Of a stretch of 56,296 nucleotides of DNA, positions 18,428 to 38,400 are shown one piece after another (the first letter of the stretch is position 1; each line of letters begins with the position of its first letter). Under the pieces are notes generated by a model that was given only the letters and a program-made list of their open reading frames with translations, was not told where the DNA came from and ran no database searches. Made by a program: the position numbers and the translations under genes. Origin of the DNA: a virus; the IMG/VR virus record IMGVR_UViG_3300020438_000049, positions 1-56,296 of that record. One strand, 5' to 3'.

Positions 18428-18638
18428 TGATGACTATCTCCTTTAATAGTGATTTAATTTCGTTAATTTCACTTTTTAAATCTGACAAATTCTTTTCAAT
18501 AACATCAACTCTTTCATCTTTTTCGACACCAACACTACGCCTAGCGATGTATTTGTCATACTCTAAGGTATTTGTGTTGATGATAGCATTGCTATTAGGA
18601 TCTCTAGAGAGATCCGCATGTCCTTTTACTTTAAACAT
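18417..18638 (-). CDS. Small coiled-coil protein (73 residues)
   Basis: MFKVKGHADLSRDPNSNAII begins a short N-terminal peptide containing NTNTLEYDKYIARRS. Residues about 40-73 are a strong helical heptad stretch (VDVIEKNLSDLKSEINEIKS then LLKEIVINV) expected to trimerise or dimerise. The start overlaps the stop of the DUF4815 giant (TAATG), indicating translational coupling, and the end overlaps the 128-residue gene. It could be an attachment or whisker-like component. I do not recognise a family. Confidence 0.8.
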   Translation of the reverse strand: MFKVKGHADLSRDPNSNAIINTNTLEYDKYIARRSVGVEKDERVDVIEKNLSDLKSEINEIKSLLKEIVINVK

Positions 18639-21600
18639 TATGCTAAAGCGATGACCCTTAGATTAGATAATCTAGGTGCATGAACTTGACTGGTAGATGT
18701 TAATACAAACTTAAGTCTGTATGATCTGAATGAAGGTAAGTTGTCAATAGTAAACGAATAAGAACTGAACTCAGATTCATCTGGAGTAAAGTTGTATTCA
18801 TTTTGACTAGGAATTAAAGTATCAGATCTACCATCACTCTTCTCTTTATCAATAATCTGACCTGAACCACTTAGGTTGTTATAACCAGGGAAAGGTGTAA
18901 AGATAGGAGTAAATCCTTCTTTTTCACTAATAGCATAGAATGCTCTTATGTCAGAGAAGTTATTAAGATAACCATCAACAATAACTTTCAAGGAAGTAGC
19001 AGAATTAGTCATTGCAACTTCTTTAGAGATATATTTAAATGCAGATGGATCACTTCCTAAAGTATTTACTCTAAAGTCATTTGCAAAATCACTAATAGCA
19101 TTATTGATTCTATTAGAAGTCGTAACTAAACTCATTCTTTGGGTATCAATAATTGGACTTACTCTACTATCAACAGTATTAAGAGTTAGTTTCATATTAA
19201 CTGATTTGTTACCCTCAACTACAGTATTCAATTTAGCATCTTCATTTATTTTGGATGCAATCAATCTAGGAGTATCTAAGTAATTTGCCTCATTCAATGT
19301 TACTGGTTCTACACCAAAGTTAACCCAAGGAGTCTCAGTACCATCAATACTCTGACCAGTAACTGTTCTAATTGTAGACTTAATAGCAGTTCCTTCAGGT
19401 GTCACGTTTTGAACCATTGGAGTAACAATTTCAAATGGTATGTTCTGTGTAGCGAATGACTCCCATCCACCAGCAGATTGATTTCTGTCAAGGTATAGAG
19501 CACGATAACCATTGTTATCACTTCTATCATCATTATCTACATTAAACTTCTCAGACATATCAAGTTTAATATGATATGAATCAAAAGTAATAGGATCTGA
19601 TTTAGTTACATCAGATAAATTATGTGTCTTGTTAATTCTATGTAAATTAACTCCACCAAGTTCATACTTATAAATTTCTGTTCCTGTTGAATAGTTCTGC
19701 TTAACTACATTAGATCCTCTAGCAATAAATCCACCTATTACATTACCAGTAACATTAGTATATTCAATAACTTCATCTCCAATTTTTGCATATCCTCTAT
19801 TAGTCGTTCCAACTCCAACTCCTTCAAAGGTTGAGAATATAGTTCCATCTTCTACTGATATACCATCTGTAGAATCAACTACATATGCTGCTGTTAATCT
19901 ACTTGGTTTAATATCAGACGTTACATTGCTGATACCTACCAAGTTATTTTGGAAGTACATTCCATGATTTCTATGATTAACTTTAACATGTAAACCATCT
20001 TCACCAATATCAAGAGCATCGATTTGAACATCTCCACCATTGAAATCATTAAATCCTGTAGTAATTCCATTACTACGTGTAACCATAACAGTATTACCTG
20101 CACCAGTTACGAAGTCTCCTTGAACACCATCAACAATTAACTGACTAGCAGCACCAATAGTAGTGATAGTTGCTCTAAAGTTTCTACCAGCTCCTTGTGT
20201 TCCTAGAGAACTAATACCAATTACATCACCTACCACATAACCATTTCCACCTAAAGCACCAGCACCATTTATTGTAACAGCAGTTACAGCACCAGAATTT
20301 ACAGTAACAACTGCTTTAGCACCCTTACCTTGTCCAGTAATAGTTTCTAGTGAAATGTTACTATAATTTAAAGCAGAACCACTAAGTGGTGTATATCCAA
20401 TACCAGCATTTGTTATCTGTAAAGCAGTAGCACTTCCTGCTGATCCAACATAGTTACCAGTTGCCTGAGATCCTTGTTGAGATATTGTATTTCCAAATTC
20501 AATAGTAGCATCTGCAGTAGTTGTACCAAGACCAACTCTTATCTGTCTAGATTTGAGTGATAATGAATCTGGTTGCAATCTTGCAATTTGATCATTTCCT
20601 TTTCCAAGAGTAGGACTGTAAATATCAACTGATCCAGACTCTACGAAATCTGCTCTGTAAAGAGTAAATTTAAGATCTTCCCATTGACTTGGTTCCCATG
20701 TAGAAGCATTTTGAGACTTAAACAGAGATCCTAGATAAGGTTGCTGTGAAACGAATGTTTTTGTAACTAGATCTTCTTCACCAACTCTAGAAATAAATAC
20801 GCTATATTTTGTAGAGTTTGATAATAAACATGCTGCATACTCTACTCCACCTTCAAGATATAATGGTGACTTGAATTGGAATGAAGTTGCAACAGATCCA
20901 TCATCAGACAGAACAACATCTTCTGGATTTAAAGATATCTCTGAGAAAGGAATAACCTTTTGTGTTGGATATCCATTGGTCGTTGACCTAATTTGTAAGG
21001 TAACGGGAACACCCATATCATCCTTACTCTTAAAGAAGCAATCAAATCTGGTTAAGTAAATACCAGTTTCATCTTCAACTATGAAAGATTCTGCAAGAGG
21101 ATCACTATTATTATTCCATGCAAGAGTTCTTTCTGTTGTATTACTACCGATAGCACGAGTACCTACTACTTGAGCAGTACCAATTGCTGTCCTAGTTACT
21201 CTATCTTCTTGCTGTCTTCTATGCTCTATTCTTGCATTTCTAACAGAAATAATAGTTTCCTGAACAGTATTAACAAATCCTCTAGCAATATAATCTTCTT
21301 CACCTCTTGTATCTGCACCTTTAGCTGAGTTACTTGGATTGTCTATTAGACTAAAGACCTTAGTTCCAACCTCAAATTTTGGATGATTTGTTTCACTTGG
21401 ATTTGGAATAAAGTAACTTCCTTGTAGAATACCATGTCTATCAGGAATCAATCTAACATTAGTAATTGTTGCTTGTGCTCCACTGCTTTGACCACGAAGA
21501 ACCATTCCACTTTCTATCCAACCAGAGTAATCTCCTTGTGGTTCATTTGATAATGAATATAAGTCAATATTGAGTATAGTCGATGCTCCAGTATATGAAG

Positions 21601-24600
21601 AGGATAAAGTACCATCATTATATGGATTTGTTCCATATACTTCAGTAGGAGAACTGAATACACCTTCTCTATGATTTGCTGAAGCAACTCTGAAAGATAT
21701 TGATGGAGTAGTTGTACTTGGCCAAGTTCCTGAAGATCCTGATCTAAGTGATTCTCCAATAACATTTTCACCAACTTGGAATACCCCAGATGACATACTA
21801 ATTTCTAGTAGTTTAGGGAATACATATCTATTAACATCCTGACCATCGAAGAATGCATACAACCTCTTCTTAGGTTTAAATCTCTTACCATCAACAGTAA
21901 TATTTCTAGATCTTACTGCTGGTGAAAGTTCTCTACTTATCAGTCTTGTACCTTGTGAAGTATTGTTTATATCTTCAACAACAAGAGTTCTTACTCCACT
22001 TCTAGAAGAATCTGTGCGACTTATTTGCTGATTTAGTGTTTCTTCATTTACTGTTCTTCTTGTTCTTTGAACTAATCTACGTCCTTGCCATTGAGTAGTA
22101 ACTCCTTCTACTCCTCCAGTTACTCTACGAGTGCTAACATCAGTTTCGGTTCCTGTCCATGTTGTCTGCCAAGAATTCCATACAGTAGGTGCAAATCCAG
22201 ATTGAGGATCTACATTAAACCTCCTTTGAGCATTTGCCATAGTAGAAGCAAAGTTACCCTGTCTGTTAATAATTCTTGGTTCAATATTGACTGTATCAAC
22301 CCATGTATCTCCAGCAGGTGTTAATTCAATACTTCCTTGCCAGAAAGGTACTAAGAAAGGAGTAACACTTTCAGTTCTTGTTCCGAAAGATTGTTTCAAC
22401 CACTCAACTTCAGAATATCCTAAAGTTAAAGCATCACCAGTTTTCTTAACGTTAATACCACCAGCTTCTGCAAACGCTAGATCTTCATTAGGATCAACAT
22501 TGGTCACAGGACCAAATATCATATCAACTGAAGCGGTAAAGTGCTTTGGTCTTAATTGCTTATTTGCTCTATCAATACTATTTTGGAATTCAATATTATC
22601 TTCTTGAGAATCGAATGAATTGAAATTGTCAACAAAGAAACCTGCCTTATACCTATTAGCACCATCTCTATCAGCAATAAACATATTATTGGTATTAGAT
22701 TCCAATAATGAAAGTGCTGTATAGTATTCTAGATTGTTAATTCTATTTTCTAATTTCCTTATATCAGAATTCTTATATCCTTTATGTGTTAAGAAGTTAA
22801 TTTTTACTTCTGATACATCATAAACATATGGAGGAAGAGTTGCTTGACATACTTCTAAAGAATCATCAACTCTGTTAGGAAAATCTGGTAGATCAGCAGG
22901 TTCTCCATAATTTATTTGGAATGTACCATCTTTATTCAAGAATATTCTATCAATTCTACCAAGATAATATGAGAATGATACTAGAAGTTGTTCATTAGAT
23001 GCTAGAATATTTGGAGCAGTATTACCTGTTTGTGCAAATGTTCTACCATAAAATTCTAAAGGAGATCTAGTAGCAGCAGAAGTTACTGTATAATTATCAA
23101 CTCTTGGTCTGATATCAATAATATCAGTGTTTCTATGACCGTCTATTGACTTAATTTCTTTAGAGAAGTTAAAGTTCTTATAAGAATCTACTGTAGTAAT
23201 ATCTCCAGTATCAGTGGAATTAAATGATGCTGTAGAGAAATATATTTTTATTTTTCTATCAGGTGCTTCATTTTCATCTTTTCTAGTTATAAATCCATAA
23301 TCATAGAAAGTGGATTGTTGACCACTATTGTAAGTATAATTATCAGAAATATCAAAACTTGGATTTTCTAGTTTTTGAATAGATGAGTATATGTTTGACT
23401 CACTAGTTAATATTCTTTCACCTTCTTTAAATATTTCATCATTCCTATAAAGTAAGCAAATTTTTGAATCATCAACTATCTCAGCAACAATAGCAACTGC
23501 ACCACTTGATTCTCCAGTAAAGATTTCTCCTAATAAGAAATCAGCAGTTGTAGTTGATGGGCTAGCAATATTAGTTAGAGTTAACTTAGGAGCAGATGGA
23601 TCAGTTGTATCTGAAGATTCAAATACACCATATAGATTGATAATATCTGGATTATTAAGAGATATTAGATCATCCTGAACTCTTGTTCCATATGGATAAG
23701 TACCAAATGTTAATCCATCATTGGCAGTAGTTGCACCTATACCAGATTCAGCATTAGAAGACTTATCTACAACAATACTATTAACAGCATTTCTTATTTT
23801 TAATTTTGATTTTGGATTTTTCTTTTGTAATGTAGCAATTACTTGCTTTTCAGTACCATCTTCACTTGGATTAAATCCTTTAAACTTAAGAGCACTTCTA
23901 CCATTATTGTCAGTATAAATCTCTATGTTATCTTCATTCAATTCATACTGTTGACCTGTACTACTAAAGTAACTATATCTTTCTGATTTAAATGGTAAGA
24001 AGAACTCACCCTCTGCACCTGTTGGGATAGTAGAAGAAGCAGTTTCTCCATTTGTCTGAGTAATATCAAATTTCTTACGTATAGTAATATATGCATCAGT
24101 AAGATCAATATCAGATATATGTTTTTTAGGTAATACGGTATAAAGACTATTATCAGCAGAATCTGTTAATGTAGAATTTATCTTTGCAAAATCTTGAGAA
24201 ACTACATCAGTTGTAGGTAAAGCACCAGCAACACCAGGGTTAACTGTTACATTCTTAATGAGTAAATCATTTGTTGAAATAGCACCAGTAGCATTTGTGG
24301 CAAAATTAACAGAAGTAACAACACCAACTACTGGAGTATCTTGCTTATCTGGATTAGTAAATTGAACCAAATCTCCAGATTTAAAGAAATCATTAACTGG
24401 GAATTTTACAGGTAATGAAACTGTAGATAATCCAGTATGAATCTGTTCACTTCCTACTGTCTTAGGATCAGCATCCCAGAAGAATGATTTAGTAATACTA
24501 GCAATACCAACATTCAATACAGGTCTTTGTACTATATCCGCACTAAAAGTACTAAAACCAGTAGAAGAACCTCCTGTTACAAATAATCCTTTAACATCTG

Positions 24601-26254
24601 ATACTCCATATGCAGTGATTCCTGTAGATATTCTACCGTTTGGTATTCCATTGAATATTAAAGATTCACTTGGTATAAAAGTACCTTCTGTTTCATAAAG
24701 ATTAAGAGTAGATCCATCAGTAACACTATCTTTCAAAAATCCTGTTGCACCACTATTAGAACCTTTAACATAGGTTGGAGTGGAAAGTGTAACTGCTTGG
24801 TTAACACTTAATTCAGTTACTGTTTGTATATCATAGAGACTAACATCCCACTGAGATACACCAGAATAAGTTCCAGATACATACCCAGACTTTAGTTTAA
24901 AATCATATACTCTAGCAACACCAATTTCTTTACCATAGTTATATGTTGGATCTGCTCCTACAACAAAAGTTCTATCATCTCTTAAACTTACAGTATAAGT
25001 ATTACCTAATCCAATTGCAGGTGTTCCATGTACGTTATTTAAAGTAAAGGTTGTTCCTGTATTATACTCAATAGGTTCATCCTTAATTTCTTTTGTAGTA
25101 CGTGTTTTAGGAGCATCTAAGAAAACACTTTCTGGTATCTCAACATCATATCCACGGACATATGCCTTACCAGGAGACATCTTGTAGACTATCTTATCAT
25201 CTGCAGCAGGTTGTCCACCATATGTAAACTCACCCTCTTTAAATATTCCATTGTTACCTAATCCATCATCTAGAGATTCTGCAACAACACTATCAAAATC
25301 CTTTACAGTAAAATCTCCATCAGTATCAAATATCTTTTCTGCTACAGTATCATCAAAAGCAGTTGCTCCAGATGAACCTGTTTTTGTTTTACTTCTAAGG
25401 TCACCATTTTTTACAGTTCCTAATTCTATGAAATTATTATCATCAAAATCATCTAATGACTTTTTAAATAGACTTGCAGTTATCTTTAATCTATCAGCAC
25501 CAGGTGCACCATAGTTATTATATCCTTGTGAATTATCATTCAGCGATTCATCTAAATCTGCATTGACAATTTCTTCTACTATGTTTAGACCAATTCTATA
25601 ATTAGGTGTATTTGAATACTGATCTAAAATTAAAGTCTCTTTATCTACAGTTATAAATTGCCCTCTAATAAAATAAACACCTTCATTTATCATGAAAGAT
25701 GATCCAGTAGCTGCATTATTACTGGATAGAGTTAATCCAAAAGAAGTTCCTGAAGTAATAGTAGTATTACCTAATAATCCAGATACTAATGTAGTGTTGC
25801 AGAATAACTCTTCTCCATCATTAAATTGTTGAGTAGAATTATTAGTGGTATTAGCACCGATATAATTCACATATAAGGTTAAAGTATTTTCTTCAGAATC
25901 TGCAGGAAGCAATACCTTATCAACCGCAGCACTAACACCAGATACAAGTCCTGTAACTTGTGTTCCTACTAATTGCTCTGCAAATGCAGAAACAGGTACT
26001 CCTTGATAAGTATTATTTAATTTTACAGCGTAATAGGATCTACTATAAGAAATATTTCCAGGTATTACTTTCTGACCTTCTTTAAAGAAGTGTTGACCAA
26101 ACTTCTCAACTTGGTTTTGAAGTATAGATTGTAGCGTTGTTAATTCTCTCGCCTGTACTGGATACCCAGGTTTAAATAAAACCTTATGGTAATCATTAGA
26201 CGAATCAAAGTCATCAAAATATGGTGCTACATTTAAGTTAGTTTGCTGTGGCAT
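18638..26254 (-). CDS. DUF4815 giant virion protein (2538 residues)
   Basis: The N-terminus (MPQQTNLNVAPYFDDFDSSN, YHKVLFKPGYPVQARELTTL, QSILQNQVEKFGQHFFKEG) is the DUF4815 signature of large T4-like cyanophage virion proteins. The body is an array of beta domains. One around residues 1715-1840 (NSDPLAESFIVEDETGIYLT, RFDCFFKSKDDMGVPVTLQI, EYAACLLSNSTKYSVFISRV) looks like a carbohydrate-binding-type sandwich. Near residues 1930-2020 are Gly-Tyr repeats (NAGIGYTPLSG, LGGNGYVVGD) like those in gp14. A terminal beta domain ends in SFRSYRLKFVLTSTSQVHAP. It occupies the T4 gene 9-12 position between gp8 and gp13, so a peripheral baseplate or fibre role is likely. No proteolytic or lytic motif was seen. 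Confidence 0.92.
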   Translation of the reverse strand: MPQQTNLNVAPYFDDFDSSNDYHKVLFKPGYPVQARELTTLQSILQNQVEKFGQHFFKEGQKVIPGNISYSRSYYAVKLNNTYQGVPVSAFAEQLVGTQVTGLVSGVSAAVDKVLLPADSEENTLTLYVNYIGANTTNNSTQQFNDGEELFCNTTLVSGLLGNTTITSGTSFGLTLSSNNAATGSSFMINEGVYFIRGQFITVDKETLILDQYSNTPNYRIGLNIVEEIVNADLDESLNDNSQGYNNYGAPGADRLKITASLFKKSLDDFDDNNFIELGTVKNGDLRSKTKTGSSGATAFDDTVAEKIFDTDGDFTVKDFDSVVAESLDDGLGNNGIFKEGEFTYGGQPAADDKIVYKMSPGKAYVRGYDVEIPESVFLDAPKTRTTKEIKDEPIEYNTGTTFTLNNVHGTPAIGLGNTYTVSLRDDRTFVVGADPTYNYGKEIGVARVYDFKLKSGYVSGTYSGVSQWDVSLYDIQTVTELSVNQAVTLSTPTYVKGSNSGATGFLKDSVTDGSTLNLYETEGTFIPSESLIFNGIPNGRISTGITAYGVSDVKGLFVTGGSSTGFSTFSADIVQRPVLNVGIASITKSFFWDADPKTVGSEQIHTGLSTVSLPVKFPVNDFFKSGDLVQFTNPDKQDTPVVGVVTSVNFATNATGAISTNDLLIKNVTVNPGVAGALPTTDVVSQDFAKINSTLTDSADNSLYTVLPKKHISDIDLTDAYITIRKKFDITQTNGETASSTIPTGAEGEFFLPFKSERYSYFSSTGQQYELNEDNIEIYTDNNGRSALKFKGFNPSEDGTEKQVIATLQKKNPKSKLKIRNAVNSIVVDKSSNAESGIGATTANDGLTFGTYPYGTRVQDDLISLNNPDIINLYGVFESSDTTDPSAPKLTLTNIASPSTTTADFLLGEIFTGESSGAVAIVAEIVDDSKICLLYRNDEIFKEGERILTSESNIYSSIQKLENPSFDISDNYTYNSGQQSTFYDYGFITRKDENEAPDRKIKIYFSTASFNSTDTGDITTVDSYKNFNFSKEIKSIDGHRNTDIIDIRPRVDNYTVTSAATRSPLEFYGRTFAQTGNTAPNILASNEQLLVSFSYYLGRIDRIFLNKDGTFQINYGEPADLPDFPNRVDDSLEVCQATLPPYVYDVSEVKINFLTHKGYKNSDIRKLENRINNLEYYTALSLLESNTNNMFIADRDGANRYKAGFFVDNFNSFDSQEDNIEFQNSIDRANKQLRPKHFTASVDMIFGPVTNVDPNEDLAFAEAGGINVKKTGDALTLGYSEVEWLKQSFGTRTESVTPFLVPFWQGSIELTPAGDTWVDTVNIEPRIINRQGNFASTMANAQRRFNVDPQSGFAPTVWNSWQTTWTGTETDVSTRRVTGGVEGVTTQWQGRRLVQRTRRTVNEETLNQQISRTDSSRSGVRTLVVEDINNTSQGTRLISRELSPAVRSRNITVDGKRFKPKKRLYAFFDGQDVNRYVFPKLLEISMSSGVFQVGENVIGESLRSGSSGTWPSTTTPSISFRVASANHREGVFSSPTEVYGTNPYNDGTLSSSYTGASTILNIDLYSLSNEPQGDYSGWIESGMVLRGQSSGAQATITNVRLIPDRHGILQGSYFIPNPSETNHPKFEVGTKVFSLIDNPSNSAKGADTRGEEDYIARGFVNTVQETIISVRNARIEHRRQQEDRVTRTAIGTAQVVGTRAIGSNTTERTLAWNNNSDPLAESFIVEDETGIYLTRFDCFFKSKDDMGVPVTLQIRSTTNGYPTQKVIPFSEISLNPEDVVLSDDGSVATSFQFKSPLYLEGGVEYAACLLSNSTKYSVFISRVGEEDLVTKTFVSQQPYLGSLFKSQNASTWEPSQWEDLKFTLYRADFVESGSVDIYSPTLGKGNDQIARLQPDSLSLKSRQIRVGLGTTTADATIEFGNTISQQGSQATGNYVGSAGSATALQITNAGIGYTPLSGSALNYSNISLETITGQGKGAKAVVTVNSGAVTAVTINGAGALGGNGYVVGDVIGISSLGTQGAGRNFRATITTIGAASQLIVDGVQGDFVTGAGNTVMVTRSNGITTGFNDFNGGDVQIDALDIGEDGLHVKVNHRNHGMYFQNNLVGISNVTSDIKPSRLTAAYVVDSTDGISVEDGTIFSTFEGVGVGTTNRGYAKIGDEVIEYTNVTGNVIGGFIARGSNVVKQNYSTGTEIYKYELGGVNLHRINKTHNLSDVTKSDPITFDSYHIKLDMSEKFNVDNDDRSDNNGYRALYLDRNQSAGGWESFATQNIPFEIVTPMVQNVTPEGTAIKSTIRTVTGQSIDGTETPWVNFGVEPVTLNEANYLDTPRLIASKINEDAKLNTVVEGNKSVNMKLTLNTVDSRVSPIIDTQRMSLVTTSNRINNAISDFANDFRVNTLGSDPSAFKYISKEVAMTNSATSLKVIVDGYLNNFSDIRAFYAISEKEGFTPIFTPFPGYNNLSGSGQIIDKEKSDGRSDTLIPSQNEYNFTPDESEFSSYSFTIDNLPSFRSYRLKFVLTSTSQVHAPRLSNLRVIALA

Positions 26255-26270
26255 AATACTTTATAATCCT

Positions 26271-27818
26271 TTAGAATTGCAAGATGACTTTAATATCTTC
26301 TTTTTGGTTTACAGATCTGTTTACAGATGGTCTGTTGTCAACGTAAATAATGTTTCCTGAATATCTTTTAACTTCAGGGGCAGAAATACCGTCGGTAAAA
26401 TCTTGACCAAGATTATATGTCCTATTATTTATAGAGGTGCTGAAACCGCTAAAGGAGGAGTCTATCTGTAAATTTGATCCAGTTGATGGAGTTATTACCA
26501 GAGTACCACCAGTAGAAGGACTGCTAGTAAATTCTAGTTGTTCATAACCATATGGTGCATCTGTTACAGCAGAACCAACTGTATTAAATCCAACCCTATC
26601 CTGCCAATACTTTAACACTCCTGTTGTTTGATCGTAATTAACTACTCTACCAGCAGCAGTAAGACCTGTACCTATTGTTTGAATAAAGGTGGCATCTGGA
26701 GTGAATGTAGCAGAACTATATCCAATACCAGTCAATCTAATTGCATTCAATGCACTTGCTTTATCTAATGTTAAAGGGAGTGTGCTGTTAGGTGCAAGAG
26801 GATTCTCTACTACACCAATTCTAGCAAACTGGTTATTAGTAATGAAATCAGGGTTTTCTGTATCATTCTCTAGTCTTGAATACATTAAAATATTAAATGC
26901 ACCAAGTTCACGATATATATCTGCACCATGACCACCTGATGGTGGAATAATAACATTAAATTCTGCAGGAGTAGTCGCAATAGGAACTCCACCTGCTGCT
27001 AAATCTAATGTACCGTAAGTATATCCAGAACCTTGACTAGATATCGTAACAGAATCTATTTTTAAATCATTATTGACAACAACTGTTGCTTCTGCACCAT
27101 TTCCATCACCATTGATAGGAACTCTTGTATATGATGTTGATATTGCTCCAACATTAACACCAGCATTTTGAACAGTAACTATCTTAACAGAACCGTCAAT
27201 TGCATTGTCTCTAACAGGAGCATTATCTGCAGAAGTACTCCATTCCTGTGGAACTGGAATAAAATCAGAAGTTTCAAATTTTATAATTTCATTCGGTTTA
27301 ATAGTAAAAAGATATTTCCAAATATATCCATCATTACTAGTTCCTGCGGATCTTGGTTCTAAATCAGTAAATGTTGGTTGATCTAATGAAATTTGTCCAT
27401 TTGGATAGTCTGGACTTGTGCCATTTTGTAGACACATATAGACTCGGTAATCATCATTTATAACATAATATGATGCATTATATAAATTAGTTGCCTTAGA
27501 TATTGCCGATGTATTTGACCTACTATAGTCATGACGATACATGTCATATTTTGTACCAGACTTCCAAATTCTTTTGGTTACAACCTGTCTAATATCTGCA
27601 TTGTTAATTTTCTTCATTGCAATCATAGTGTCATAATATGACCTCTCTTGATCGAATGAATCTTTTGGAGTAGGTGGATCAGTGTCCCAATTATTCTGAA
27701 CATCAGACGGATTAGGTAGACCTATAAAAGAATAGTAAGAATTTTCGCTACTAGCTACACCAGCAACAAAATTCTTTGCGTTTAATATTCTAATCTGATC
27801 GGTTATAATTGCAGACAT
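26271..27818 (-). CDS. gp8: gp8 baseplate wedge protein
   Basis: The 515 residues match T4 gp8 (334 residues) at both ends. The N-terminal part has SYYSFIGLPNPSD, TKRIWKSGTKYDMYRHDYS, YRVYMCLQNGTSPDYPNG and TSNDGYIWKYLFTIKPNEII (T4 DGYVWEYLFEIPPD). The last strand GNIIYVDNRPSVNRSVNQKE followed by DIKVILQF matches T4 GEMIYMENRPPIIMAMDQTE and INILFTF. The extra 180 residues lie in the middle and include a Gly-Tyr repeat (ISSQGSGYTYGTLDLA). Gp8 is a wedge component linking gp6, gp7 and gp10 in T4. CTAAATA lies 23 bases upstream, containing the stop of the protease gene. Confidence 0.93.
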   Translation of the reverse strand: MSAIITDQIRILNAKNFVAGVASSENSYYSFIGLPNPSDVQNNWDTDPPTPKDSFDQERSYYDTMIAMKKINNADIRQVVTKRIWKSGTKYDMYRHDYSRSNTSAISKATNLYNASYYVINDDYRVYMCLQNGTSPDYPNGQISLDQPTFTDLEPRSAGTSNDGYIWKYLFTIKPNEIIKFETSDFIPVPQEWSTSADNAPVRDNAIDGSVKIVTVQNAGVNVGAISTSYTRVPINGDGNGAEATVVVNNDLKIDSVTISSQGSGYTYGTLDLAAGGVPIATTPAEFNVIIPPSGGHGADIYRELGAFNILMYSRLENDTENPDFITNNQFARIGVVENPLAPNSTLPLTLDKASALNAIRLTGIGYSSATFTPDATFIQTIGTGLTAAGRVVNYDQTTGVLKYWQDRVGFNTVGSAVTDAPYGYEQLEFTSSPSTGGTLVITPSTGSNLQIDSSFSGFSTSINNRTYNLGQDFTDGISAPEVKRYSGNIIYVDNRPSVNRSVNQKEDIKVILQF

Positions 27819-27840: not shown

Positions 27841-27847
27841 TATTTAG
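27841..27847 (-). promoter_or_regulatory. Late-promoter-like CTAAATA(AATAAATA) for gp8, containing a stop codon
   Basis: CTAAATA lies 23 bases before the gp8 ATG and extends into a tandem AATAAATAAA run. Its TAA (27846-27844) is the stop codon of the upstream protease-cupredoxin gene. Confidence 0.6.
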
Positions 27848-30800
27848 GAAGTTATAACGATGTTACCACGCATAGAGGCATGGTATTGGCAGTTATACCA
27901 ATAAGTACCTGGAGTGACACCTGCGGTATCCCAAACTACTACAGCATTTTGAGTGCCGTTATTAGTAAGTCCACTTGGAACTTCGGAAGGTGATGGTTGC
28001 CCAGTACCTTCCCTATTACTAATATAGAAAGGATGACCACTAGCAATTATGGTTAATTGCAACACATCTCCTGTCTTTATAGTAATCGTTGCATTATTTG
28101 CTTCTTGTACTGTTCCATTTCTATCATAACCTTCCTCTACGTGATACCAACCAGAACCACCATGTCCAATAGTAAAGTTCCACTGATAGGAATCAGGGAA
28201 TTGTTCTGTCTTAGTTATTACCTTTCTTGGTCTTGGATATGTAAGACCTCCATCAGTAATTGTAATAGTTCCAACCATTCCACCATGATATTGGCAGATA
28301 TAATAATAAGTTCCAGGAGAAGATGGAGTCCAAGTAACAGTTCCAGATTCAATACCATTGTTAGTTACACCATCTGCACCACTACCAGTACCAGTAGTAT
28401 TTGCTGTCTTAATCCAGAATGGATGTCCAGTAACACTAACATTGAATGTTAATGTATCTCCAACTCTAGCTTGTACTGATACATTATTTCCACTAATATT
28501 TCCACTACCATCAGTTCCATTAAGTACATATGCAGATGCACCAGAATTAGTTACTCCAATAGTATAATTCTTAGCATTCTTAGTTCTATTCTTCCAATTT
28601 TCATGTGGATATACTATAGCAGAATCAGGTCGTTTTTTCTCAAAGTAAAGATATCTATTATTACTATTAGCTAGATCTTTGTAATTTTGCGACCACAACG
28701 TCATTTTTGATACATTGGTTGAAGGGAAAGTCCTTGCAGTTGATGGATCAGACCACCATAAAATACGAACAGCACCACCACCTCCTCTACAAGATTGGTA
28801 ACCACCAGCTGTATATGTTCCTGCTCCACCACCATATAATCCACCAGCTCTACCATTTGGAGCACTTGCACTAACACTTGGAGTAGTACCACCAGAACCA
28901 CCGCCACCACCTGCTTGACTATTACCACCAACACCATTAGTTCCTTCACCATATATTCCTACTCCACCACCACCAGCACCTTGAGCAACTCCAGTTGACC
29001 ATCCACCGCCGCCACCGCCGCCACCTCCAGTACCATCTGCTCCCTGAGTGTTGCCATAATATCCACCCATTCCACCATTTCCTGAATATCCACCAGCACC
29101 ACCGCCTCCACCATTATCATTCGTGTTACCACTACCACCATTACCACCACCATCTCCTACATAAGTTCCACCAGTTCCACCATTGGCAGTATTTCTTCCA
29201 CCTTCACCATTAACAGTAGTCGAATTTATAAAATATGAATCTCCACCAGATAAATTGGCACTTCCTGCTCCAACTTCTACGGTATATGTCTGACCTGCTG
29301 TTACTGGGATATTATTTTTCCATCCCAATCCACCTCCACCAGCATTTCTATCCCCTCCACCAGCACCAATTACTACAGCAGACACCTGAGTTACGCCAGC
29401 AGGACACGTCCATGTATAGGTTCCTGCTGTTGTCCATTCTGCTTCACCATAACCTGCTGCAGAACCATCTGAAGAAACTTGATCTGCTTTTGCAAAATCT
29501 TTTATATGTTGTATTGCATCTTCCTGAGTCATATTTGGTTCTTGTTCTGCAAGACATGCAAGATATCCAGCAACTTGGGGACCAGACATACTAGTTCCAT
29601 CAATATCTGCTAGTTTAAAATTAGCATCTCTTGGATCATTTACTAGAGTTCCATATCCTTCTGTAGATGCAGTAGTATCAAAAACGGAAGAAATGATATT
29701 TGACCCTGGAGCGAAGATATCAACTCTTGCACCTATATTACTAAAACTGGATTTATATTCATCTTTAACATCACCAACAGAACCTACACATATTGCATTA
29801 GCATCTGCACCTGGACTTGATCCTTTAGAATGATAATATGTTGATGCACCAATTTGATAATAATTGTTAAAATCAGAACCAGTAGGTAAATCACACATCC
29901 AATAAGAGTTACCAGCAGAACTGACAACAATAATACCGTCATTTATAGCATCTTGTACATCAGCCCCAACAGAACTAACTCTTACAGGAACTCTGTACAA
30001 GGTAGTATTATATGGACAAGGAACTCCATTTGCTTCTAATATAACTTTTCTTTCAGCATCTGTTCCACTTACTGACGTACTAGTTCCTCTATAAACAACA
30101 TTCGTAATGCTATTAAGATCTGGACTACCTTGACTATAACCCCAACTGTGATTTGTTATGGTTGGATTTTTTCTTCCAGTTTTTGGATTAACACCCTTCC
30201 ATTTATGAAATTCTCTTAGATAATCAAAAAGATAAACTGCAAAAGAAGAATATGATGTACCAGATCGATTATTAACTAGGTCTGTACTAAATGCTATATT
30301 ATAAAGATTAGCGTCTCTTGCCCATCCTTGCGTATTACCTCCAGCAGTACCAGCAACGTGAGTTCCGTGATTACTTTGACCTGGATTACCATACCCAGTA
30401 GCACTGTAAGTATAAGTTTTTCCAGCAGCGTTACTATCACCTATATTAGCTGAATATTGAAACCAATCGATCTGATTCATTCTAGAACCAGTATTACTAA
30501 GAGGATTTACCCAAAACTCTGGGTGTTCATGATTTACATGACTATCTACGATTACAAGATCAACATTCTTTCCAGAAGAACCTGTTTGTATTGTATCATT
30601 GAGAACCATTTGCCCATCAACTCCCCAATTGGCAGTTTGGACACCATCAACAACTCTTTTTAATCCCCAGTTAAGATCACCACTAGAAAAAGTCGTGTTC
30701 TTTTGGAAATCACCACTTTGTGGACCCCAAAGAGGAGTTTCTTCTAAACCTCTTTCATTAGGTGCTAATTCTATATTGATTACATTTGGATGATCTTTTA

Positions 30801-30990
30801 ATTTACTTACGTCTAATTCACTTAACTTATAGTGTGTATTTCTACTAACATTTCTTCTGGCAAGACATTCTACTTCCCTATCTGGACAATATCCATCACT
30901 TCCAGAAGTTTCCATCTCATCATAAAAATTTCCCAAATCGCCATGCTCTCTAACAGTGACGATATATTCTCTCTTTATATCACTGAGCAT
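27844..30990 (-). CDS. Subtilisin-like (S8) protease fused to Gly-rich region and two cupredoxin domains
   Basis: The 1048-residue protein has four parts. Residues 1-80 resemble an I9-type propeptide (REYIVTVREHG, VSKLKDHPNVINIELAP). Residues about 105-510 are a peptidase S8 domain: VIVDSH (Asp149), NHGTHVAGTAGG (His208), VVSSAGNS (Asn361) and DGTSMSGPQVAGY (Ser467), a complete catalytic set. Residues about 518-743 form a Gly-rich adhesin-like domain opening TAGTYTWTCPAGVTQVSAVV. Residues about 815-912 and 930-1048 are two cupredoxin domains with ligand sets His856, Cys899, His902, Met905 and His986, Cys1034, His1037, Met1040. No signal peptide or membrane segment is seen. It sits among baseplate genes between a fibre-like gene and gp8, so it is probably virion-borne; that location is inference. 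Host-surface proteolysis, self-maturation and copper binding are possible roles. Confidence 0.9.
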   Translation of the reverse strand: MLSDIKREYIVTVREHGDLGNFYDEMETSGSDGYCPDREVECLARRNVSRNTHYKLSELDVSKLKDHPNVINIELAPNERGLEETPLWGPQSGDFQKNTTFSSGDLNWGLKRVVDGVQTANWGVDGQMVLNDTIQTGSSGKNVDLVIVDSHVNHEHPEFWVNPLSNTGSRMNQIDWFQYSANIGDSNAAGKTYTYSATGYGNPGQSNHGTHVAGTAGGNTQGWARDANLYNIAFSTDLVNNRSGTSYSSFAVYLFDYLREFHKWKGVNPKTGRKNPTITNHSWGYSQGSPDLNSITNVVYRGTSTSVSGTDAERKVILEANGVPCPYNTTLYRVPVRVSSVGADVQDAINDGIIVVSSAGNSYWMCDLPTGSDFNNYYQIGASTYYHSKGSSPGADANAICVGSVGDVKDEYKSSFSNIGARVDIFAPGSNIISSVFDTTASTEGYGTLVNDPRDANFKLADIDGTSMSGPQVAGYLACLAEQEPNMTQEDAIQHIKDFAKADQVSSDGSAAGYGEAEWTTAGTYTWTCPAGVTQVSAVVIGAGGGDRNAGGGGLGWKNNIPVTAGQTYTVEVGAGSANLSGGDSYFINSTTVNGEGGRNTANGGTGGTYVGDGGGNGGSGNTNDNGGGGGAGGYSGNGGMGGYYGNTQGADGTGGGGGGGGGWSTGVAQGAGGGGVGIYGEGTNGVGGNSQAGGGGGSGGTTPSVSASAPNGRAGGLYGGGAGTYTAGGYQSCRGGGGAVRILWWSDPSTARTFPSTNVSKMTLWSQNYKDLANSNNRYLYFEKKRPDSAIVYPHENWKNRTKNAKNYTIGVTNSGASAYVLNGTDGSGNISGNNVSVQARVGDTLTFNVSVTGHPFWIKTANTTGTGSGADGVTNNGIESGTVTWTPSSPGTYYYICQYHGGMVGTITITDGGLTYPRPRKVITKTEQFPDSYQWNFTIGHGGSGWYHVEEGYDRNGTVQEANNATITIKTGDVLQLTIIASGHPFYISNREGTGQPSPSEVPSGLTNNGTQNAVVVWDTAGVTPGTYWYNCQYHASMRGNIVITS

Positions 30991-30993
30991 CTA

Positions 30994-32421
30994 TCAAGCC
31001 TCCAACTGAACGATTGTTAGAGATACTGTAATGTTTGCTGTGGATGTCTCATTATTGCAAACCTTAACATATATTTTGTCTGATGGTGATACATCATTGT
31101 TCCATCCCATTATACCTGGACTCATTATGAACGTACTAACACCTGCTGTACTTGTATTAACTTCTGCAATTACACCAGAACCAGGTAGTGGGTCTGTTGT
31201 TACTTTTCGATCTGCGTCTGCTGTCATTGCTGCTTGATCAGTGTAAAGGACTACCCATGCAGCACTTGAAATACCTACTTTCTGCAACATCCAAGATTTC
31301 CTACCATCTAAGAACATAGTGTTTACAGTTGCACCAATACCAAGACCAGTTACTTGTTTGTTTATTGTTGCTCTTGTTGATAATCCAATACCAGAACTTG
31401 CAACACCTTCTAGATTTGATCCATCACCATAGAAAGAAGTACCAGTGATAGAACCAGAAGCACCTACATGCCCATTAACATCTATTCCTCCAGAAGTAGT
31501 TGTTAATCGTACATCATTCGCCTCATTTCCAGTATATCCATAATAAAGTTGTATATTTTGATCACTAGTATTTGTATTTTCTTTACACCTCAAATACCAG
31601 GAAGTTCCTCCTGCTGAATTACTAATATTGATATCTTTACCAGACATCAAATTAAGATCACTACTGTCTCCTGCTGATATTTGTAGGTTTTGGTGACGAG
31701 TACCGATTATTGCTGGACCACCTTGAGCCATGTATATCGAAAGGTTGCCAAAACTGGGACTATCTCCCCACCACGCTTTGGAAGATTCTCCCCCAACCAC
31801 ATTTGTTCTAAACCAAAGAACATTGTCTGATTTATCCCATTCTATGTTTCGCCCTTGACCTAAGAAAGTAACATCATCTGAAAGAGTTGTTATCCCACCC
31901 AAATAAGTAGGACCATTAACTGTTAATGCAATACCAGCAGAAGAACTAATAGTATTGATACCAACTATTTTCGATGTACTAATACCTGTAGCATCACCTG
32001 TCCATCTACCAGCACCACCTAGACCAGTAAGACTTGAACCATCACCAAAGTAAGTAACAACACCAGTACCAGCAGTTACGATACCAGCATGAATATAAAC
32101 GTTTCCATGAACAACCGCATCTGACTTAACTGTTGCAATTCCTGTTATAGACGCACCACCACCAACTCTTATATCTCCACCATTTACATTAACTGATCCA
32201 TTAAATGTTGCAATATTAACATCACCCGTACTTTCTCCAGCACCAACCTGCAATTTACCAGCAACTAACTGACTAGTTCCTGTAGAACCCAAATTAGTTC
32301 CATCGCCAAGATAGGTATAAACCTCATCAAAATTGGCATTCGATTTAGTACCAGCTTGATTCAGGGTATCACCAGTACCATCATTCGCACTTGTTCCTGT
32401 TGATATACCTAGTTTGGCCAT
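30994..32421 (-). CDS. Fibre-like virion protein (475 residues)
   Basis: The N-terminus MAKLGISTGTSANDGTGDTL followed by GTKSNANFDEVYTYLGDG is the short attachment motif found at the start of many T4-like short fibre and fibre-head proteins. Two YFGDGSSLTGL / FYGDGSNLEGV elements and repeated short Gly/Val/Asn beta segments (residues about 50-350) suggest a trimeric fibrous shaft. The C-terminal 120 residues (RKSWMLQKVGISSAAWVVLY, DPLPGSGVIAEVNTSTAGVS, IMGWNNDVSPSDKIYVKVCN) form a distinct globular tip. It may be the short fibre or attachment protein. It lies three bases before the protease gene and is probably co-translated. CTAAATA lies 23 bases upstream. Confidence 0.83.
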   Translation of the reverse strand: MAKLGISTGTSANDGTGDTLNQAGTKSNANFDEVYTYLGDGTNLGSTGTSQLVAGKLQVGAGESTGDVNIATFNGSVNVNGGDIRVGGGASITGIATVKSDAVVHGNVYIHAGIVTAGTGVVTYFGDGSSLTGLGGAGRWTGDATGISTSKIVGINTISSSAGIALTVNGPTYLGGITTLSDDVTFLGQGRNIEWDKSDNVLWFRTNVVGGESSKAWWGDSPSFGNLSIYMAQGGPAIIGTRHQNLQISAGDSSDLNLMSGKDINISNSAGGTSWYLRCKENTNTSDQNIQLYYGYTGNEANDVRLTTTSGGIDVNGHVGASGSITGTSFYGDGSNLEGVASSGIGLSTRATINKQVTGLGIGATVNTMFLDGRKSWMLQKVGISSAAWVVLYTDQAAMTADADRKVTTDPLPGSGVIAEVNTSTAGVSTFIMSPGIMGWNNDVSPSDKIYVKVCNNETSTANITVSLTIVQLEA

Positions 32422-32443: not shown

Positions 32444-32450
32444 TATTTAG
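32444..32450 (-). promoter_or_regulatory. Late-promoter-like CTAAATA for the fibre gene, containing a stop codon
   Basis: CTAAATA lies 23 bases before the ATG. Its TAA (32449-32447) is the stop codon of the 5150-residue gene. Confidence 0.55.
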
Positions 32451-35400
32451 ACTATGTAATTGATTGATCTCAAAGGTTCAAATCTTCTTACGATAGAAGA
32501 AGTGTGAATACCTGTAGCAGATGTAGAAGTCTCTCCCACACCAATACCATTGCCACCATAGAATTTGTAACTGTTTTGTAATTTAGATTTGGTTTGTAAC
32601 TTACCCCAACTATAATCACCAATTCCTATAGGAGTCTCGATAGTACCAACATAGGAATTACCAGACCCAACTACAGAGTTGTCCATAGTATATATCTCAC
32701 TATCAAATGTGATTCCTGTAGAGTCAAAGGTAATTGTAGATAATCCAGTAATTCTAGAACCTACTCTTCTTACCATTGTTACTCCAACACCAGGAATATT
32801 AACTGTCTTATTCTCAACACTACCTACAACGTAGATGTTATTGACAAATTCAGTTCCTATTGCAACCACAGTATCATTAAGATCATATGATCTTATTAGA
32901 GTATGTGCTACACCAACTGTAGAGTTCTTAACAACAAAGAAATCACCTTGCTGTATCTGACTCAATGTAATAGCAGATCCTACTATGGATGCATCACGTA
33001 AATCAGAACCGTATGGAATATGGAAGTCAAATAACATAGTATCACTGTTAGCAATAGTTGTAGTACCAAATCCAACAATTACTCCAGAATCACCTGCGAA
33101 CCAGTTAATTGGTTTTGTTTCTTCAGTTAATGTTGGTGGAGAAATAAGAACCTGTGGTATAGAAGTATATCCTTCACCATTGTAAGTAATAGAAACAGCA
33201 GAAATAGATCCTGTGTTGTTTACCGTTGCAGTAGCAAGAGCAGTAGATCCAATTCCAATAGGATTTTGAATAGAAACTGTAGGAGCAGTAGTATATCCTA
33301 CACCACCATCAGTAACTGTAATTGAAATTATTCCATCACCAGAAACTGTTGCTGTAGCACTTGCACCAACTTGAGTTTCCATATCAACGAAAGTAACTTT
33401 CTTCTGGAATAGCAAGTATGGATCAACATTATTCTCATTCTTACCATCAAACAATGGTCTTAAGTTGTCAACATATATTTCAGTAGATCCAGCAGAAATT
33501 GCTTTAGTTATGTAAGCAGTTGGTGAAATAACTGGTTCATACAATTCTCTTGCCTTACCTACCTCAGTTTCATCAATAATCATATCAGCAGTTTGACGAC
33601 ACCAAGTAACTGGACGTAGTAAATTAGAATCACTAACGTTTCCTGGACCTGTATATGGATCTGTTTCAGCAGTGTCTATTGATAAGATGTTAGTAGCAAT
33701 CCTTTCGTCTTCTTCTAGACTCCAATGCTGACCTCTTTCAACATCGTTATCAATTTCTAATGTGTCTCCACGTTTTACAGTATCAATTATGTTTCTAAAG
33801 ACAACATCAACATCACCACTTCCCTTATAGAATAGGATCTTAGACGTATCACCTTTCTTAGGTGCTTCACCAAAGGTAATTACACTACCACCGTCAAATC
33901 TAAATCCTTTACCAGGAACCTGTAATATATCATTGACAAATACTAATAGTGTATCTTCAACATTGATATTAGATCCTTCTGAAGATTTAATAGCAATGAG
34001 GTTACCACCAACTTTTATTGGGAAGTTAATTCTATTAGCATCAAATAGATGATCAACATTGTCTAAGGTTTGTAACATACCCATAGACCAACCATTAAAT
34101 TCGTCAGTGAATATATCTTGAACAGTAAGTTGGAATTCTTCAAAGTTAGATGTTGTTGGAATACCTAAAGTACCACCAGAGGAAACAGTCAATTTCTCAC
34201 CAACACCATAGCGATATCCACTATTTTTAATAGAGAAGCTAATAATACTAGAACCTTGTCCGACAATAATATCAGCAGTAGCATATGTTCCAACACCTGC
34301 AGCAGCAGATCCACTGTAAACCAATGGAATATTAGAATACGAAAGTGGTTGGTCGATTACAACATCTAAGAATGGATCAACCTTACCACCTCTTGCATAG
34401 TTGTGATGTCTGGTTGATAATCCACTATTAACTTCAAATGTAGTACTATCAAGTACCTTAACAACCACACTACCGTCAATAGCAGGATCAGCACCACTAG
34501 GTGAAAGGTTCTTTGCTCTAGGAGCAACAATTGCTTGCTGAACTTTACCACCTGAACTATAGAATGTTGGTACTGTAGAAACTCCGATATTAACAGAAAT
34601 AACAGTTGATCCAACACTAACTGCATTTGCTACAGTTCCACCAACATATGTGTGATTATAGTTACCACCACTCTTAACAGCACCAGCAGTTGCACTGATG
34701 AATGTATGTGGATAGTTATGACTAATAGGACCAGGATTTACTGGATCATTAACATTGATTAGAATAGTAGTTGTAGTAACTGATAGAATCTTTATCGAAG
34801 TATTGTATACGTAATCAGCACCACTACTAGTATTAGCACCAGATGCACGAGGATATGTTCTATTCTGTACCCCACCATTATTGCATGAGAAGTTTAATGA
34901 ATTAGCAGCAAGTCTAATACTTGTACCTGCAGTTAGAGTATGGAGACCAATTGTTAGTTCCATTTCTCCTGATTCGGGATTATATGTTGCAGCACTCACA
35001 TTATGAGCAACTTCTGGAGTTGTTCCAACATTTAATGTAATTGTACCAGCAGATTGATTAGAACTACTAATTTTAACAAACTTATCATGTATAGGATCAG
35101 TTAGTCTTGGATAAGGATGGTTAGTAGCATTACTATCCATCGCACAAGTGAATACTAATGAATTAGTTTTAATCTTGACCGAATCATCTATTTTTAATCC
35201 ATGATTAGCACCAATTGTTAAAACTAAGTTACCATTAGATGGTATGTAAGTTGCATTAGTGACGTTATGTTGAACTAAAGTTCCAATACCGATAACATCT
35301 ACACCATTGTAATTCTTATCTGGTTTTCTTGGATACTTATGTTGTGTAGCATTTCCATCCTTAGTACATGTGAATGTTAAGGACTCTTTTGCTATCTTAA

Positions 35401-38400
35401 TGTTTCTACCAGCAACTAGTGAATGAGGTTCACTAAGAGTCATGGTCATAATACCAGTAGAAGCAGTATAATCTGCATTAGTTACACTGTAATTAACAGA
35501 AGTACTTAAACCAACATCTAATGTAATTGTATTGTTGGTTGTTGCAGCAACTGATACTGATGTCTGATAGATTGGATCAGTTCCTCTTGGATAAGTATGA
35601 GGACTTACATAATCATCCATTGAACAAGTGAATGTCAAACTATCATCTGAAATTCTGATAGATTCACCTGCTTTGGTTAGTCCATTAGCAGTTGCTGATA
35701 CAAATGTATGTGGAGTTACGTTAGTAGAAGGAATTCTATCTACAACTCTAACAGTAAAGGTATTTGCTGTTACCTTACTGATTGGTAACCACTTATTACT
35801 TGCAGGATCTGGTTCTACAACACCATTACCTTTATGAACTGCTGCTCTTGGATATGAGTGGTTTGAATTATTACCATCTTGACCGCATGTGAATACTATA
35901 GCATTATCTGCAATCTTAATCTTATCACCATCTGACATGTTATGAGCAGATGCAGTTGTCATGGTCATGATACCAGATACACCATCATAAGTTACATTAT
36001 TGACACTGAATGTAGATGATCCACGTAATGCATGATCTCCAATTGTCAATACTAACTTACCAGTAGATCCTAAGTAAGATGCATCAGTAACATCATACTT
36101 AACTAGAGGTGATTTACCTACAAGAAGTGTAATAGTATTCTGACTTGTTCCTACAATTGCAGTTGCTATTCCTGCTACTGGATCTGTTGCTCTTGGATAT
36201 GAGTGGTTGGTTGTATTACCATCCTGCTTACATGTAAATGTTACTGCATTTGCATTAACTGTAGCAGTATCATCAACTGTATAAGGATGATTTGGAATAG
36301 TAAGTACTAATTCACCTTTTGCAGCATCATAAGTTGCGTCAATTGGTGTTGTGGTTCCTATTCCTGTTACACTAACTCCACCATCAACAGCACTTGCAAA
36401 TGTATGATTATAATCACCGCCAGTAACTACCGCACCAGTTGATGCACTAACGAATCTATGTGTGTGATCTCCACCAGTTAATAACGCATCAGCAGATGTT
36501 CCTCCAGCCCAAGTATGTGTATATTGATCTGAAGGACCAGCAGCACCAACATCAACTGTTATTTTGCCATTATTGTAAACTAATCCATTTTGAAGTGCAG
36601 AATGGAATGCATGAATAGTAGTATTTGATGAAGGTCTTTGAGTGAAATCTAAAACATTAACTTTGAATGTATTGACTGTTACATCATAAACTTTCAACCA
36701 TCTATCAATTGAATGATCACCTTTTCTTGGATATGCATGAACTGTTTCATAATTATCCTTATCACATGTAAATGATATTGAATCTTCTAGTAGTTTAACA
36801 AATTTTCCATTACCAAATCCATGATTGTTGATAGTGATAGTCATCACACCTTCATATGGATCATAAACAGCATTAGTTACTGTATAATGTGCTCCATCAT
36901 CTAGGATATTGATTGGTCTATCATATGCAATATCTTTTCCTCTTGGATATACGTGTGTTGTAGCACCATTATCCAATCCACATGTCATTGCAAGTCCAGT
37001 AAATATAACTTGCTTATCGCTTCCAATTCCATGAGAAGTGGAAGTCATTACAGTCATTATACCAGATACATTGTCATATTGTGCATCATATATGCTAACA
37101 GCAGGAGCATAATCACAAGTGAATGCTATTCCAGAAAGAATAACCATTTCAGTTTCTGACAACCCGTGAGGATTGATTGTGGTTATTGTAGTAATACCAT
37201 TAGTTCTTGTATAATCTACATGCTGAATCTCACTTGGTGCATTGAATACTTGAGGATTAGTAACAGCGATTCCTGTAACATGTCCACCAGATACTGATGC
37301 AGTACCAATATCAACAACTTTACTTGTAATGTTAGGTGTTGTTCTAACTCCTACATTAACAACTGTCTGAACTCCAGATCTATATCCAGATCCACTATTA
37401 CCAACACTAACTGAACCAATTGTTCCTGCAATAGAAACATTAGGGGATCCACCAGCATCAACTAATGGTTGATATCCTAAACCTTCTTCAGATCCAACGG
37501 AAACAATTACACCACCTCTTGGGAAAGAAGAAATACCAACATCATTAGTAATTGTTCTTGCAGTACCAACAAAAGTAACAGATGTAATACCAGCACTCTG
37601 CTCTAAGAAGTAATCACCAACTAATCCTGGTTCTTGGAAGATGTCGTTAATTAAAACAACTGCATTATCTTGTTCAACACCAGTAAAGTTACCGCCTTCT
37701 GTTTTTAATGTAAATGTGCTGTTAATCGCATCAAATTCAGAAGAAATGTCATCAAAGATATAGTTGTTGCTATAAGCTTCTGTTGATGTATCGGGAATAC
37801 CTGAACGCATAAAGGATCTTCCTTGGAAACTTGATCCAGTCTCGATACCTACCCAATCTCTCTCATCAGGTTCATTTGTTGTAGAACTGAATGGTACATT
37901 ACCATAAGGTGCTTCTACAAAGTTAAGAACGTTATCAACAATATTATAATTACCTTGAACTTTAGTAACTAATGCACTAGTTGCAGCATATCCAACTTTA
38001 GTACCTAACCAAGGTCTACGTACTCTTATTCCATTAGCGGTTCCAATACCAACTCCTTCAACCTTCATTATCTCATCACCAATCTTAATCAAATCTCCAC
38101 CAAATATAGAAGTAATACTTCCAACTTGTACTAAGTTGTCTGTAGTGAATAATTGTTGATCTAGATGAGTTGTTAGTGCTGTAGATACAACTGGAGACTG
38201 AATAATATTATCAAGAGCAACAATAACCTTTGTATTCTGTCTATCGGCAACAAATCTCATTGTTGTACCAATACCAACACTAGAAATGTCTAGGATTTCA
38301 GGTGTTCCTAATAATGCATCTTCTGCAGATCCTGCAAGTTTAATCTTCTCCTCATCAACTTTAACAGCATAAACTGTACGAGGAAGTTTGTCAGTCTGAC

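Follow-up and report, generated by a model that had tools for sequence, protein, structure and literature searches.

A subtilisin-like protease fused to a Gly-rich domain and two cupredoxins, encoded beside a fibre gene in a virus related to Synechococcus T4-like phages

Background

The phage tail enzymes known so far mostly digest sugars or peptidoglycan. In T4-type phages, the tip adhesin gp38 is encoded directly after the gp37 fibre gene and carries an exchangeable Gly-rich domain. Jumbo phages possess tail-associated YHYH and NlpC/P60 enzymes, in which enzymatic domains are fused to tail proteins as in the locus described here, but subtilisin and cupredoxin are unmentioned in the survey of these enzymes (PMC7824862). 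The proteinase K-like S8A subtilases, such as 2b6n, aqualysin I (4dzt) and proteinase K (1ic6), are secreted cellular enzymes, and the type-1 copper proteins, including auracyanin B, pseudoazurin, plastocyanin and amicyanin, have in common a His...Cys-x2-His-x2-Met ligand set.

Kyanoviridae-type cyanophages encode a large protein family, PHROG 9158 ('unknown function') or T4-GC 292, which includes PSSM2_297 of P-SSM2. In GenBank the protein is named 'subtilisin-like serine protease' in S-H9-1, S-H38, S-WAM2 and Sf-FR1, and 'peptidase' in S-CREM1. No paper on the function of phage S8 tail proteases or on virion cupredoxins was found in the open-access literature, and the 'sheath subtilisin' of two papers is a tail-sheath domain unrelated to the S8 protease. 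Here we describe a fused member of this family, found in a stretch of 56,296 nucleotides (IMG/VR record IMGVR_UViG_3300020438_000049, positions 1 to 56,296; hereafter the window) whose nearest relatives by capsid protein and gp8 are Synechococcus T4-like phages.

Results

The gene at 27844–30990 is an uninterrupted frame on the minus strand, as are all window features given below, and encodes a protein of 1048 amino acids with a propeptide-like domain, an S8 protease, a Gly-rich domain and two cupredoxins. As stated in the initial annotation, which did not give the strand, all of these domains lie in one frame between a fibre gene and gp8; the site is within the tail cluster, and the fibre gene is gp10-like. 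The fused form recurs at full length, with 64–77% identity, in other, independent metagenomes, which rules out an assembly artefact or a chance fusion; both cupredoxins are also present in the fused proteins of loci L004 and L013. For the full-length protein, AF2 gives a model with a mean pLDDT of 78 and low confidence in the tail region.

Residues 86–515 (29446–30735) form the subtilisin catalytic domain (S8A, proteinase K-like). Peptidase_S8 of Pfam matches residues 140–515 (E 8.6e-27), the PDB profile and fold comparisons group the domain with proteinase K-like S8A enzymes, and the AF2 model has the subtilisin alpha/beta fold of these enzymes (TMt about 0.8; range 0.76–0.82). The four residues named in the initial annotation are exactly where it placed them: catalytic Asp149 (30544–30546), catalytic His208 (30367–30369), oxyanion Asn361 (29908–29910) and catalytic Ser467 (29590–29592, in GTSMSGP). 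Asp, His and Ser thus stand in the S8 order, with HGTH and GTSMS-type motifs and the oxyanion Asn, as in 2b6n, 4dzt and 1ic6, whereas the protein that carries them belongs to a phage tail cluster. In the family alignment and a wider census, all four residues are kept in 112 of the 112 ORFs in which the four positions are aligned, down to 29% identity, with a slight bias for Asp149, as one of the two census scan patterns contained the catalytic Asp; the His, Asn and Ser positions lie outside both patterns. On this conservation we reject a dead enzyme, and the 1048-residue protein carries, on the evidence of its sequence, a complete S8 enzyme.

The N-terminal domain (residues 1–85; 30736–30990; family motif SRNTHY), delimited in the family alignment, had been suggested to be a probable I9-like propeptide. 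It has no I9 match by sequence in Pfam or the PDB, where the best hit, T4 lysozyme (E 0.7), is a chance one. However, its AF2 model shows the order beta-alpha-beta-beta-alpha-beta, and several subtilisin propeptides stand among the nearest PDB folds; pro-subtilisins are among the top fold matches, and isolated propeptides are matched at TMt 0.67–0.73 and rmsd 2.5–3.2, with weak E-values (0.008–0.06). On this modelled fold we call the domain I9-like, and not I9.

The Gly-rich domain (residues 516–745; 28756–29445; 37% Gly) precedes the conserved C-terminal tail and is a mosaic, swapped among near-identical relatives. Its adhesin type, already noted in the initial annotation, is borne out: Gly_rich_2 at residues 520–745 stays below the Pfam cut-off in the window protein (20.3 versus 24.3 bits), but is matched by ten of 59 family members (E 0.01 or better, the best 5e-12). 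When the window protein is compared with those of L013 and L167, identity is mostly 88–100% in S8 and 90–98% after residue 751, and falls to about 55–85% across the Gly-rich region. Simple NG86 estimates of dN/dS are about 0.2–0.4 in S8 versus about 0.5–0.9 in the Gly-rich region. As read from these alignments, the domain is exchanged between otherwise near-identical proteins, and it diverges as a host-binding module would be expected to.

Relatives of the protease were found in at least 529 viral loci. The majority of family members are proteases without further domains, about 555 amino acids long, and their C-terminus is a conserved tail of some 50 amino acids (SNNRYLFY..RP...YPR.R). Trivial matches aside, this tail is confined to S8 ORFs of the protease family, and its use as a general virion tag was ruled out. 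Among the non-truncated ORFs examined, 86 consist of the protease alone, eight have one cupredoxin, and seven have the Gly-rich domain and one cupredoxin; rarer forms are the Gly-rich domain with two cupredoxins (two ORFs) and two cupredoxins without the Gly-rich domain (two ORFs). In the clade of the window protein, the conserved tail has received two inserts, the Gly-rich domain and a cupredoxin, and a further cupredoxin has been appended. The window protein accordingly has the Gly-rich domain before the first part of the tail (residues 770–805; 28576–28683; SNNRYLYFEKKRP...), then cupredoxin 1 (residues 806–914; 28249–28575), which splits the tail, its second part (residues 915–927; 28210–28248; YPRPR), and finally cupredoxin 2 as a C-terminal extension (residues 928–1048; 27847–28209). 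In L017, L018 and L045 the cupredoxin is placed within the S8 domain instead.

The window protein agrees with the PHROG 9158 cyanophage proteins in protease family, catalytic residues and coupling to a fibre gene, but those are mostly stand-alone, whereas it is fused to a Gly-rich domain and two cupredoxins. In the phage records examined, S8, a Gly-rich domain and two cupredoxins do not occur in one chain, and none of the records spans 80% of the 1048-residue query at one place. The earlier statement that no T4-type baseplate protein of such architecture is known therefore stands for the full chain, but not for the protease, which already had its family and, in several cyanophages, its subtilisin-like label. 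A host origin was rejected: in the one genome scan, no more than eight loci came up, and these look like phage contigs binned in MAGs. A second, distant S8 subfamily is represented by PHM2_106 of P-HM2 (L087:5973-11453), a protein of 1827 amino acids encoded just upstream of gp13, in which cupredoxins flank the protease.

Both C-terminal cupredoxins that had been annotated are present with complete His-Cys-His-Met ligand sets: His856, Cys899, His902 and Met905 in cupredoxin 1, and His986, Cys1034, His1037 and Met1040 in cupredoxin 2. Copper-bind matches residues 838–911 above the Pfam cut-off (23.9 versus 21.2 bits); cupredoxin 2 alone is below the cut-offs, and is about 40% identical to cupredoxin 1 with the ligands retained. 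A complete ligand set is present in 48 of 52 distinct cupredoxins. When the cupredoxin columns are ranked by conservation, all four ligand positions fall in the top five, and in 49 cupredoxins the Cys-x2-His-x2-Met spacing does not vary. A ligand-masked profile, which very decayed copies may escape, likewise recovers 48 complete sets, and this argues against a search artefact. It also rules out, for most of these domains, that they are decayed sandwich domains; the exception is an S8-plus-cupredoxin protein (L115:2415-4427) whose cupredoxin has none of the four copper ligands. The PDB sequence matches to cupredoxin 1 at E < 0.03 are blue-copper proteins without exception. The phage domains differ from such type-1 copper proteins in that they form part of tail proteins, and some of them occur in tandem or within a protease domain. 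Cupredoxins also occur in fibre connectors and proximal fibres, and their varied sites (tail, within S8, fibre proteins) therefore point to a mobile tail module. Outside the cyanophages, Actinomycetia phage DSL-LC01 (L081:7110-8495) has a full-ligand cupredoxin in a gene next to collagen-like genes.

The partner fibre gene (30994–32421), whose product carries a T4 gp9/10 N-terminal domain, encodes 475 amino acids with a gp10-like N-terminal anchor and ends 3 nt before the protease start. Its C-terminal domain of about 124 amino acids (30997–31368) is the proposed docking site of the protease. A fibre-type gene ends at most 57 nt upstream of the protease in all 99 resolvable loci, and in 95 of the 99 it ends in this common domain; the N-terminus varies, being a gp10-type anchor in 42 loci and something else in the rest. 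Four deep members (those of P-SSM2, S-SCSM1, Sf-CH8 and S-T4) have partner genes without the common domain. The domain also occurs in a second fibre gene in S-H9-1 (L076:3092-6884) and ACG-2014i (L186:2319-7654), followed there immediately by a gene for a protein of 767–776 amino acids; in these proteins, which were checked against PHROGs only, no S8 was detected and one has a cupredoxin, and they are possibly alternative tip proteins.

In the window, the pair lies between a gp7-position baseplate gene of 5150 amino acids (32447–47899) and the gp8 baseplate wedge gene downstream (26271–27818). This situation is different from that of the named isolates whose gp8 is most similar, S-SM2, SynMITS9220M01 and Bellamy, in which gp7 is followed directly by gp8 with 23–34 nt between them; isolates that are nearest when judged by gp8 and capsid have no fibre-protease pair at the gp7-gp8 site. 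S-SM2 and SynMITS9220M01 are absent among the matches listed for the window protein, and Bellamy is there only for the cupredoxin stretch. In S-CAM4, S-WAM2, S-RSM4 and others, the pair lies in a different region, at sites near talC and tRNAs. A core assembly protease would be present in all close relatives with like structural genes, and this one is not. Since gp7 runs straight into gp8 in the closest isolates, the pair is an accessory cassette, dispensable for core assembly in close relatives, and not part of the core assembly machinery.

The virion proteome of S-SCSM1 comprises 45 proteins by mass spectrometry (PMC9602691). Its homologue of the window protease (ORF 228), about 29% identical, is tagged 'virion protein', which agrees with the virion association proposed initially, at the level of annotation and for a distant homologue. 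We counted 48 S-SCSM1 genes with this tag versus the 45 published, and the named examples agree.

Discussion

The fibre-protease pair resembles gp37/gp38 of T4-type phages in layout and not by homology: a tip gene lies directly downstream of its fibre gene and includes an exchangeable Gly-rich domain. However, the window protein has no gp38 family match in Pfam or PHROGs, and the tip would here be an enzyme. What is new, as far as sequence comparison goes, is the fibre-protease pairing with its common fibre domain, the accessory cassette, the swapping of the Gly-rich domain and the conservation of the cupredoxin ligands.

The reading towards which we lean, with slightly better than even confidence, is that of a virion-borne protease at the fibre tip that acts on surface proteins of the cyanobacterial host. 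The gene for the complete S8 enzyme forms a two-gene cassette with the fibre gene immediately before it. The I9-like domain would fold and restrain the enzyme, with autocatalytic removal around residues 78–86. From gene order and co-conservation we infer that the conserved protease tail docks on the C-terminal domain of the partner fibre, which would bring the enzyme to the fibre tip. There, binding to the host surface may fall to the cupredoxins, presumably loaded with copper, together with the exchangeable Gly-rich domain, and the protease may cleave surface or outer-membrane proteins of the cyanobacterium during adsorption.

The initial annotation had proposed two functions, trimming of host-surface proteins and processing of neighbouring fibres during assembly. 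We favour the former and disfavour general processing in assembly, given that gp7, gp8 and the giant neighbour are present in the closest isolates although the protease pair is not. A role in maturation, with the enzyme trimming its partner fibre or other fibre or baseplate proteins nearby, would fit the I9-like propeptide, the late structural cluster and the strict coupling to one fibre gene, and serine proteases do serve assembly in other phages (PMC7824862, PMC13282480). However, the S-SCSM1 homologue appears to stay in the virion and a rapidly exchanged Gly-rich domain is unexpected on an assembly enzyme, and we regard maturation as an unlikely role.

Somewhat less probable still is a mainly structural or adhesin module in which proteolysis is limited to self-maturation (propeptide removal), like some autoprocessed proteins. 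Such a module would explain the adhesin-type Gly-rich domain and the cupredoxin inserts, which even break the S8 domain in three loci (L017, L018 and L045), but the roughly 86 stand-alone members have no adhesin module at all, so that the enzyme is the constant part, and its catalytic residues are retained everywhere. We consider it very improbable that an intracellular or lysis-stage protease merely co-purifies with virions: the 1048-residue sequence shows no apparent signal peptide, and the authors of the S-SCSM1 study warn that certain enzymes may just persist in the CsCl fraction (PMC9602691), yet the fixed place after a fibre gene and the fusion to tail-type domains speak against it. If the tail-tip reading is true, this widespread family would mean that cyanophages must also cut host-surface protein, and both the target protein on the host and resistance to its cleavage would become testable.

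We think it most likely that the cupredoxins bind copper, which would serve stability or binding; the redox role raised in the initial annotation is possible, but the analysis gave no support for it. That cyanophage tails carry proteases with copper-loaded blue-copper domains, whose copper centre helps the attack on the host surface by metal- or redox-assisted recognition or cleavage, would amount to a virion enzyme class not described before, a proposal that we hold to be distinctly doubtful. The conserved ligands in cyanophage tail proteins raise the question of whether virions carry copper, and whether copper in seawater is relevant to infection.

Two large genes close by contain recognizable domains. 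At 18638–26254, a protein of 2538 amino acids carries DUF4815 (E 5e-50), and the S-SM2 gene at the corresponding place after gp8 is annotated VrlC. Inside the 5150-residue ORF, a YHYH domain is found at 43832–44140 (Pfam E 3.9e-24); YHYH is predicted to be a tail-associated metal-dependent hydrolase (PMC7824862).
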